Shown: positions 27,657-30,189 of the stretch, one piece after another | How positions within the stretch are numbered: position 1 is the first letter of the stretch | Layout: each line of letters opens with the position of its first letter | Translations under genes and position numbers: made by a program | Assembly (NCBI GenBank): GCA_902540265.1 | Contig: CACBLW010000009.1 | Coordinates: 1-53,248 of the forward strand | Length of the DNA stretch: 53,248 nucleotides | From: an uncultured Alphaproteobacteria bacterium | GTDB lineage: Bacteria > Pseudomonadota > Alphaproteobacteria > HIMB59 > GCA-002718135 | Direction of reading: 5' to 3' | Notes under the pieces: generated by a model | Database searches by the model: none | The model's input: only the letters and a program-made list of their open reading frames with translations | Told to the model about the DNA's origin: nothing

Positions 27657-27943
27657 TATTCTACCACCTTTGGTACTGCAAAAAAACCTTCGAGTTTATC
27701 AGGAGCATTTTCAAGAATTTCCTCACTAGAATTAGTATCATTAGATACATCTTCTCTTTTGGGTAAAATTGACGATGATATGTTACTTAACGGTTCTACA
27801 TTTTCAGTATTTACTTCATTTAACTGCTCTACCCAGTCTAAAATGGAATTAAGATCCTTAATATAATCTTCAGATTCTTTATCATCTAACTTTATTCTAG
27901 ATAGACGAGCAATTTTATTTATTGTATTTTTATCAATCTTCAA
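27656..27943 (-). CDS. gatC: Asp-tRNA(Asn)/Glu-tRNA(Gln) amidotransferase subunit C
   Basis: GatC is the small wrapping subunit that stabilises the GatA-GatB contact. The 95-residue protein has the standard N-terminal helix (INKIARLSRIKLDDKE), LNSILDWVEQLNEVNTENVEPL, and the C-terminal PDKLEGFFAVPKVVE. The start codon is TTG at 27943, with GGAG 8 bases upstream in a GGAGCTC sequence. It is divergent from ruvX, whose ATG is only 17 bases away. Confidence 0.94.
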   Translation of the reverse strand: MKIDKNTINKIARLSRIKLDDKESEDYIKDLNSILDWVEQLNEVNTENVEPLSNISSSILPKREDVSNDTNSSEEILENAPDKLEGFFAVPKVVE

Positions 27944-27960
27944 CTTATGAGCTCCATTAT
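27944..27960. promoter_or_regulatory. 17-base divergent gap whose GAGCTC palindrome can serve both ribosome sites
   Basis: The gap between the gatC TTG (27943, minus) and the ruvX ATG (27961, plus) contains GAGCTC. On the minus strand it reads GGAGCTC, a Shine-Dalgarno 8 bases before TTG; on the plus strand it reads TGAGCTC, placing GAG 7 bases before ATG. The gap is too short for two promoters, so at least one must lie inside the opposite coding region. Confidence 0.5.
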
Positions 27961-28419
27961 ATGAATGATCAAAATAATTTAATCGATGGCCTTAATACAT
28001 CACAAATACTTGTAGGTCTAGACCTAGGAACTAAAACGATTGGTGTTGCAGTAAGTGATAGATCAAAAATAATCGCTACACCTCTTTCAATTATCCAAAG
28101 AAAAGGAACTAATAAAGATTTAATTATCATGAAAGATGTTTTGAAAGAGTATGAAATTGGTGGATTTATTCTTGGTCTGCCGATTAGCCTGGATAATAGT
28201 GAAAACAAACAAAGCCAATTAGTAAGAGATTTTAATATTAATCTTCAAACCTTTTTTAAAAAACCTACAGCTCTTTGGGATGAAAGATTTTCATCAGATG
28301 TAATCTTTAAAGAAATGAGAAAAGCCGATTTAAGTAAAACAAAGATAAAAAATAAACTTGATCAACAATCAGCTGCTTATATCTTACAAGGATATTTAGA
28401 TAGATATAGAAATAATTAA
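27961..28419 (+). CDS. ruvX: Putative pre-16S rRNA nuclease / Holliday junction resolvase-like protein (RuvX/YqgF)
   Basis: RuvX/YqgF is an RNase H-fold protein thought to process the 5' end of 16S rRNA. From the ATG at 27961 the product is 152 residues with VGLDLGTKTIGVAVSD (the catalytic Asp in LDLGTKTIG), FILGLPISLDNSENKQS, LWDERFSS with the second acidic residue, and a C-terminal DQQSAAYILQGYLD with the last Asp. An in-frame TTG at 27922 would extend the protein into gatC and is not preferred. The next gene is pyrB, as is usual in Alphaproteobacteria. Confidence 0.93.
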   Translation: MNDQNNLIDGLNTSQILVGLDLGTKTIGVAVSDRSKIIATPLSIIQRKGTNKDLIIMKDVLKEYEIGGFILGLPISLDNSENKQSQLVRDFNINLQTFFKKPTALWDERFSSDVIFKEMRKADLSKTKIKNKLDQQSAAYILQGYLDRYRNN

Positions 28420-28426
28420 TAAATTA

Positions 28427-28457
28427 GTTTACACATATTGACACATTATTGACACAT
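28427..28457 (+). repeat. Helically phased TTGACACAT direct repeats before pyrB
   Basis: ATTGACACAT occurs exactly at 28437-28446 and 28448-28457 (period 11), and a related copy GTTTACACAT lies at 28427-28436 (period 10). The last copy abuts the ATG at 28458. Each unit contains TTGACA, which matches a -35 element, but no convincing -10 box follows at the right distance. Because the coding sequence just downstream begins with an integrase-like segment, these are best read as former arm-type or autoregulatory integrase sites. Confidence 0.6.
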
Positions 28458-29600
28458 ATGAATTCAAAGCTACTTAAATCAGGGCACATAAAATTATATA
28501 AAAGAGAAAATTCAAAATATTGGCAAATGAAAGTGAAAATGCCAAAATTAAAAGCAATCAGGTCATCTACAGGTTCAAAAATTCTTAAAGATGCAGAAAA
28601 AATAGCTTTAAAATATTATTCATCAATTTCTTCAAAAACAAATATCAAATTAAGAACGAAAAATATTTTTAAAAAAATTCATTTAGTAGAAACAGCTGAT
28701 TTAACCAAGAAAGAAATTGAGCACATTTTAGATGAATCTAAAAAATATATAGCTTTTAATAAAAGGAAAATTAAAAAAATTAATGTTCTAGAAGGAAGAA
28801 CAATATTTAATCTTTTTTTTGAAGATTCAACAAGAACAAGAACAAGTTTTGAAGTTGCTGCTAAAAGGCTAGGAGCAGATCTCATTAATGTAGTGGTAAA
28901 AGATAGTTCTATTAACAAAGGTGAGACCTTGCTCGATACTATGACTACTATTAATTCAATGAATCCTGACGTTTTAATTGTAAGGCATCCAGAGGAAGGA
29001 ATTAGTAAAAAAATTTCAGAAACAGTAGATGCGTCTGTAATTAACGCTGGTGATGGTAGTCATGAGCATCCCACACAAGCCTTATTAGACGCACTTACTA
29101 TAAAAAATAAATTTCAAAATTTTGCAAAATTAAAAATTGCTATATGCGGGGATATTTTACATAGCCGTGTTGCTCGATCAAACATAATCATACTATCAAA
29201 GTTAGGAGCAAAAATAAATGTTATTGGGCCTAAGGAATGGTTACCAAAAAGTTTAAATAAACTTCCTGTGAACGTTTATACGGAAATGAAAAAGGGATTA
29301 CAAAATTGTGATATTGTTATGATGCTACGTATTCAAAAAGAAAGAATAGTTGGGAAAATAATGCCAAATCAAAAGACTTATTTTAAAAAGTATGGTTTAG
29401 ATTACAATAAACTTAAATATGCAAAAAAAAATGCTTTCGTTATGCATCCAGGCCCAATGAACCGTGGTGTAGAAATAGACTCGAAACTTGCCGATGACGT
29501 CACGAGGAGCTTAATACAAGAACAGGTCGCTATGGGTGTTGCAGTACGAATGGCATGCTTAGACTTAATTATTAAAAACAGAGATGACTTTAGTAAGTAA
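28458..29600 (+). CDS. pyrB: Aspartate carbamoyltransferase with integrase-like N-terminal extension
   Basis: From about residue 74 onward the protein is a complete aspartate carbamoyltransferase, which makes carbamoyl-aspartate for pyrimidine synthesis: FFEDSTRTRTSFEVAA (carbamoyl-phosphate loop), KGETLLDTM, GDGSHEHPTQALLDALT, ICGDILHSRVARSN and MHPGPMNRGVEI. The usual protein is about 310 residues; here about 73 residues precede the normal start. That segment (SGHIKLYKRENSKYWQMKVK, then RSSTGSKILKDAEKIALKYY) resembles the N-terminal DNA-binding part of tyrosine integrases. No in-frame ATG, GTG or TTG lies between the ATG encoding Met28 and the carbamoyltransferase core, so the fusion is probably translated. 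An in-frame TTG at 28449 is an alternative start. plsY overlaps the end by 17 bases. Confidence 0.9.
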   Translation: MNSKLLKSGHIKLYKRENSKYWQMKVKMPKLKAIRSSTGSKILKDAEKIALKYYSSISSKTNIKLRTKNIFKKIHLVETADLTKKEIEHILDESKKYIAFNKRKIKKINVLEGRTIFNLFFEDSTRTRTSFEVAAKRLGADLINVVVKDSSINKGETLLDTMTTINSMNPDVLIVRHPEEGISKKISETVDASVINAGDGSHEHPTQALLDALTIKNKFQNFAKLKIAICGDILHSRVARSNIIILSKLGAKINVIGPKEWLPKSLNKLPVNVYTEMKKGLQNCDIVMMLRIQKERIVGKIMPNQKTYFKKYGLDYNKLKYAKKNAFVMHPGPMNRGVEIDSKLADDVTRSLIQEQVAMGVAVRMACLDLIIKNRDDFSK

Positions 29601-30189
29601 TTTATCATTAATCATATTGTTTTATGTAATTGGATCATTACCCTTTGCATTGATTTTTACAAAATTATTTGGCTTGGGAGATATTAGAAAGGTTGGTTCT
29701 GGAAATGTAGGTGCAACAAATGTTTTAAGAACAGGAAATAAATTTGTAGCATTCATTGTTCTTTGTTTTGATATTTTTAAAGGCTTTCTTCCATTCCTCA
29801 TTTTACAAATGTATTTTCAAGATATTTCTTTATTGAATAAAATACTTATCTGTCACTTTGCCATATTAGGTCACATCTATCCAGTCTGGTTGAAATTTAA
29901 AGGTGGAAAAGGTGTTGCAACGTATATTGGTTTCTTATTTGGTCTTAATCCTTACATTGCACTTTTATTTTTATTAGTATGGTTTGTGACTGCTTTTGTA
30001 AGTAAATACTCTTCTCTTGGGTCTTTAATTGGAATTTTAGTAGCTCCAGCTTATTATATTTTTATTAATTTTAATTTTTATATTCTAATTTTCTTTATTT
30101 ATTTAACTTTAATTATTTATCTTAAACACACAGAAAACATTAAAAGACTCATAAACAAAACTGAAAGTAAAATTAAATTATCCAAGTAA
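29584..30189 (+). CDS. plsY: Glycerol-3-phosphate acyltransferase PlsY
   Basis: PlsY transfers the acyl group from acyl-phosphate to glycerol 3-phosphate, starting phospholipid synthesis at the inner membrane. The 201-residue, five- to seven-helix protein has the motifs GSLPFALIFTKLFGLGDIRK, the glycine-rich GSGNVGATNVLRTG (motif 1, near 39-52), HLGHIYPVWLKFKGGKGVAT-like sequence (AILGHIYPVWLKFKGGKGV), and SLGSLIG (motif 3). It overlaps pyrB by 17 bases. In many relatives pyrC lies between pyrB and plsY, and dprA follows; both are absent here. Confidence 0.95.
   Translation: MTLVSNLSLIILFYVIGSLPFALIFTKLFGLGDIRKVGSGNVGATNVLRTGNKFVAFIVLCFDIFKGFLPFLILQMYFQDISLLNKILICHFAILGHIYPVWLKFKGGKGVATYIGFLFGLNPYIALLFLLVWFVTAFVSKYSSLGSLIGILVAPAYYIFINFNFYILIFFIYLTLIIYLKHTENIKRLINKTESKIKLSK

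Follow-up and report, generated by a model that had tools for sequence, protein, structure and literature searches.

The arm-type domains of tyrosine integrases bind DNA, and trigger enzymes such as PutA and BirA are metabolic enzymes with a role in gene control. In KplE1, the gene for the integrase intS is repressed by its product, and the study that reports this argues that most tRNA-linked integrase genes could be autoregulated (PMC2951348). Here we describe the pyrB gene of an uncultured alphaproteobacterium, located in a stretch of 53,248 nucleotides (nt) from contig CACBLW010000009.1 (the whole stretch is called the window below). By sequence, its product is a complete aspartate carbamoyltransferase (ATCase) headed by the N-terminal, putatively site-recognising domain of a tyrosine integrase, and three tandem repeats, resembling those at integrase genes of the same subfamily, lead directly to its start codon. 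We consider it likely that this PyrB fusion binds the three sites abutting its start codon and limits its own expression in the manner of intS.

The PyrB extension resembles the integrase arm-binding domains (AP2-like; HPI/HAI7 type, 3rmp, 3jtz and 3ju0) in its phrog_1-type sequence family and its upstream tandem repeats, and its predicted strands-plus-helix fold may be a further likeness, whereas the fusion is without the core-binding and catalytic domains of those integrases and the domain heads a metabolic enzyme. Like PutA and BirA, PyrB is a metabolic enzyme with a putative DNA-binding part, predicted here to act on its own gene; unlike in those enzymes, both this part and the operator would come from a mobile element, apparently acquired together. 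As in intS (PMC2951348), integrase-type sites lie at the start of the gene encoding the binding domain, although the regulated product would be PyrB and the autoregulation is a prediction. In the plant ALOG regulators, too, a recombinase DNA-binding domain has been taken over by the host, but these are eukaryotic transcription factors with another recombinase domain, and the abstract mentions no captured sites (PMC3537659). The domestication of integrases is usually argued from the protein alone. At pyrB, both the domain and the DNA sites belonging to it can be followed from mobile elements into a gene of core metabolism, and one lineage with neither offers a natural contrast. Searches of the open-licence literature found no fusion of ATCase with an integrase DNA-binding domain (the matches were unrelated by title and start of abstract), only a match on another topic for DNA-binding autoregulation of pyrB or ATCase, and nothing on TTACACA integrase repeats or on the exaptation of integrase DNA-binding domains in bacterial metabolic enzymes.

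The N-terminal extension of PyrB

The pyrB frame (28458-29600, forward strand) encodes 380 amino acids, and the Pfam family PF02729 begins at residue 75, leaving about 73 residues ahead of the carbamoyltransferase core. The preliminary description had noted these extra residues, and three repeats ending at the ATG, from the sequence of the window, and both are real. The core is complete, as expected of a trigger enzyme: PF02729 is followed by PF00185, and the NCBIfam model NF002032 matched with a full-length score of 405.7 bits against a cut-off of 263. Profile searches with the extension gave matches in the N-termini of a subfamily of tyrosine integrases, the homology expected of an arm-type domain, and the residues that never vary among the fusions (YKRENS, WQ) are for the most part common to the integrases. 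These matches bear out the original proposal and identify the extension, by sequence, as an integrase N-terminal domain. Integrase families did not match the whole 380-residue protein, in which residues from about 75 onward match carbamoyltransferase families, so no integrase catalytic domain was recognised. The extension alone had no significant family match in Pfam, PHROGs or NCBIfam, nor did 17 members searched against Pfam; profile searches of Protein Data Bank (PDB) sequences returned chance matches only, and a scan of viral contigs with the extension profile returned none. Each family genome with an extension match had one match only, and the window genome (78% complete) yielded no further copy of the domain. 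In some integrases (G905, G1021, G1024, G1030 and G1034) this N-terminal domain occurs twice in tandem within a single frame.

An AlphaFold2 (AF2) model of the 73 residues has strands at residues 3-6, 11-15, 22-26 and 34-37 and a helix at 43-61, with a mean predicted local distance difference test score (pLDDT) of 87.5. In Foldseek comparisons of this model, no PDB entry matched below E 0.45 and no viral model below 0.001, although two integrases among the viral models had template modelling (TM) scores of 0.61 and 0.66. The fold evidence for an integrase-type domain is thus supportive but weak. An AF2 model of the full-length protein, built on 12 close sequences, was of poor quality, with a pLDDT of 42.9, and was not used.

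A scan of related genomes gave 77 fusion loci. Apart from three that belong to other projects, their records carry names in AG- or AH-, and we take these to be single-cell genomes from a single ocean survey. Each of the 77 begins with an ATG at the integrase domain, as had been suggested for the window; 72 have full-length frames, four are cut at contig ends, and one (L228 in genome G028) is frameshifted near the end of the extension, with the rest of pyrB open in another frame, possibly owing to a sequencing error. The accompanying claim that the normal pyrB start has been lost holds for the window, where direct reading found no in-frame ATG, GTG or TTG from codon 29 into the core, and for 68 of the 77 loci between codon 29 and 25 codons beyond the core start (including two whose contigs end ahead of the core and the frameshifted one). 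It does not hold for the other nine, which have at least one in-frame start codon in that stretch; four of the nine have an ATG at codon 76, immediately at the core. The ordinary start is therefore usually, not always, gone.

Tandem repeats at pyrB and at integrase genes

The repeats before pyrB have the consensus T(T/G)ACACAT and occur in three copies without a gap to the fused frame (Table 1). The CACA core of all three sites was invariant among the 47 distinct upstream sequences of the 77 loci, while several between-site positions varied. In four genomes from four other genera, two or three sites were kept 11 base pairs (bp) apart although the extensions are only 41-50% identical to that of the window. 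The exact two-site pattern occurred 20 times in 14 genomes, nearly always at pyrB (18 occurrences; the others were one elsewhere in G508 and one in the sister-family genome G037), and we found no regulon by this search. An array was present at pyrB in 11 of the 12 family genomes searched; the exact pattern was absent from G036, in which site 2 differs, and from G041. A control with the reversed pattern also gave 12 matches in the 14 genomes, without locations, some of which must be the same arrays since these contain TACACA twice as well.

Table 1. Coordinates of pyrB, its leader and the preceding gene in the window
Feature	Position	Strand	Remarks
ruvX, longest frame	27922..28419	+	ends 38 nt ahead of the pyrB ATG
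Repeat 1, TTTACACAT, putative operator or arm-type site	28428..28436	+	CACA invariant in 47 distinct upstream sequences; agrees with TTACACA of integrase-leader sites
Repeat 2, TTGACACAT, 10 bp from repeat 1	28438..28446	+	CACA invariant in relatives
Repeat 3, TTGACACAT, 11 bp from repeat 2, abuts the ATG at 28458	28449..28457	+	CACA invariant in relatives
Integrase-derived N-terminal domain, PyrB residues 1-61	28458..28640	+	profile matches in integrase N-termini; AF2 model; pN/pS 0.13 (residues 1-56)
Linker from domain to core, PyrB residues 62-73	28641..28676	+	pN/pS 0.25 (residues 57-73 of 381-residue relatives); lower pLDDT
ATCase catalytic core and stop codon	28677..29600	+	PF02729, PF00185, NF002032

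The same repeats were often found at genes for integrases with this domain. Among the first 12 integrase matches read, seven had a tandem TTACACA pair upstream and five had a tRNA gene just upstream on the same strand, as predicted by ARAGORN. Wider searches extended the set to 56 loci, which include the discovery loci and some that are near-identical or truncated; a T[TGA]ACAC pair spaced by 10 or 11 bp lay within 120 bp in eight of them, while shuffled sequences predict 0.018 and background windows had 2 in 2,316. When repeats of any word were counted, 29 of the 56 loci had one at a lag of 11 bp (6.1 expected), whereas each other lag from 7 to 24 bp gave at most 10 (5-6 expected).

Because the count of 56 held the discovery set, we drew a fresh sample from 142 genomes of another order, 45 of which matched at E <= 1e-10; among the best matches of 30 of these genomes, 29 were new. 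The pair was present in 18 of these 29, against 1 of 1,194 background windows. As a control, we used the 30 best Phage_integrase-family loci of that order, which are short frames and probably XerC/D; none of the 28 with enough upstream sequence had the pair, and four had any 11-bp repeat. The search motif fixes five positions of the integrase sites. Among 54 such sites in pairs, the free second position was T in 53, the free seventh A in all 54 and the preceding base C in 45, so that the integrase site reads CTTACACA.

Integrases scoring higher against the PyrB profile were likelier to have the pair (24 with and 59 without, two near-duplicates having been dropped; Mann-Whitney p 2e-9, uncorrected for relatedness), although the single best-scoring one, L180, was without it. 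Seven integrases with a more distant domain (L157, L158, L164, L171, L176, L178 and L197) had 11-bp-spaced repeats of other words, among them TAGCACA, TAGCGCA, CTGACCAA, TCACACAA and GGACACA. At the integrases, the repeat word thus seems to vary along with the domain at a constant spacing, and the 11-bp rule may be useful for locating binding sites of this subfamily. Since integrases of this subfamily have such tandem repeats at the starts of their own genes, the repeats at pyrB are plausibly the binding sites of the PyrB domain, which has cognate-type tandem sites beside its gene.

TTACACA arrays at 11 bp were also seen in three groups of viral contigs (L239/L242/L256/L260/L273, L245/L259/L263 and L248/L236/L254) in whose vicinity the domain was not seen; one of these groups has its array within the opening codons of a reading frame.

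Proposed autoregulation and its alternatives

The domain and its sites are the parts needed for a circuit of the intS type, from which we infer that PyrB binds the sites and lowers its own expression. The 38-nt pyrB leader matches the integrase leader in having tandem TTACACA-type sites one helical turn apart, and the fused domain would bind the three sites at the start codon, so that PyrB would repress its own gene. The catalytic chains of ATCase form trimers; a trimer could offer three domains to the three sites, and binding might be coupled to substrate or nucleotide levels. Whether these marine bacteria, whose genomes are small, gained this ready-made circuit in one capture, with a trimer that docks on the three sites, senses its own state and stops its own synthesis, is in our view an evenly balanced question. 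If the domain does bind, the genome would have taken a one-step route to feedback control, and the fusion would be a regulator of pyrimidine synthesis in uncultured ocean bacteria. A single purified protein and a 40-bp DNA would then suffice to test how essential enzymes are regulated in streamlined genomes.

In the reverse test, in which contigs were selected by pattern and then examined for the domain, the repeat pattern occurred without the domain in 47 of 48 viral contigs. Several of the 12 viral contigs read belong to phage groups that carry such arrays elsewhere; the array by itself is therefore no marker of this domain. No promoter-like site overlapping the repeats was found in the gap between ruvX and pyrB.

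The absence of such a site would suit a reading that we think rather unlikely, in which the domain does bind the repeats but activates or fine-tunes translation, or roadblocks transcription within a ruvX-pyrB operon, at the RNA or the DNA level. Because the ruvX stop codon lies 35 or 38 nt ahead of the pyrB ATG in all 77 loci, pyrB is probably co-transcribed and the repeats would then lie in the mRNA beside the start codon, which makes an effect on the mRNA or on transcribing polymerase a real alternative. Arm-type domains, however, are DNA binders, and in several integrases the sites lie between the tRNA and int genes, where DNA binding is expected.

It is also doubtful, in our judgement, that the extension is a captured leftover kept for reasons of the protein (start signal, folding or oligomer contacts), with the repeats serving as translation start region or promoter and bound by nothing. 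Because the ordinary start is gone in most relatives, the start of the domain must be kept in any case; genome G512 does without the domain; and the domain evolves faster than the core, with ratios of nonsynonymous to synonymous polymorphism (pN/pS) of 0.13 for the domain, 0.25 for the linker and 0.05 for the core (50 alignable genes, 1,064 pairs). Against a mere leftover stand CACA cores that never vary between variable positions, a site spacing of 10-11 bp across five genera, invariant residues that the fusions largely share with integrases, and the joint absence of domain and repeats, even if a single deletion could have taken out the two together.

An assembly artefact or chimeric contig, which the joining of the same extension to IspH and RpoN in the metagenome proteins P0001 and P0045 might suggest, is vanishingly improbable and is refuted by the many separate assemblies that carry the fusion. 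In these two proteins the extension is 92-99% identical, and P0001 switches at a short stretch common to the pyrB junction; both are most likely assembly chimeras themselves. In P0134 an integrase N-terminal half is joined to a short-chain dehydrogenase, probably also by chimeric assembly.

Distribution and origin of the fusion

An order-wide search with the extension (162 genomes, E <= 0.001) gave matches in 83 genomes, 82 of which belong to the family of the window (76 in its genus and six in four other genera); the remaining match, in the sister-family genome G519, is a 42-residue frame away from pyrB. A PyrB search of the same genomes at E <= 1e-30 gave 122 matches, of which 86 fell in this family and 36 in its sister family; the 40 genomes without a match are uninformative. 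The extension was present in 82 of the 86 family genomes; of the four others, G011, G012 and G505 are cut at contig ends and only G512 is truly without it. None of the 36 sister-family genomes carries the extension at pyrB, and its universality in the order was rejected. The fusion is one open frame of 384-406 amino acids in 77 of the 82 family genomes; of the other five, four run into contig ends and G028 has a frameshift.

With 100/99 support, G512 falls in a group with four genomes that bear the extension and represent four genera, yet the pyrB leader of G512 has neither repeats nor domain. This is most simply explained by one deletion, and G512 shows that the arrangement is dispensable. 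The preliminary description had regarded the extension as the scar of an integrative element; rather than a fresh scar, as judged from its distribution and pN/pS, it is an old domain in five genera of one family, kept under purifying selection. Relatives sharing the extension without integrase similarity would have spoken against the fusion reading, but the similarity is there. The paper on the AEGEAN-169 clade (SAR11 subclade V) divides it into a HIMB59 half and another half, and the fusion-bearing family is most likely its subclade II, the half without HIMB59. The terms 'pyrB', 'aspartate carbamoyl' and 'integrase' are absent from the main text of that paper.

The insert lies between ruvX and pyrB, as proposed, and in the three sister-family loci read the two open frames overlap with no insert. 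No evidence was found for the further proposal that an element integrated before pyrB and then decayed: no tRNA gene lay in the 3-4 kb read around pyrB in the window or in four divergent loci (together L004 and L135-L138), where no search for attachment-site cores was made, and the genes flanking pyrB in the window are host genes (ruvX upstream, plsY and topA downstream) rather than further genes of an element. That just the 5' part of an int gene was captured therefore fits as well as integration and decay. Beside pyrB, pyrC is expected in many alphaproteobacteria, and it was not found there in the window or in the three sister-family loci (L142-L144); in the window, plsY (29584-30189) follows directly. 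Most likely, the domain and its leader sites were captured together in a common ancestor of the family.
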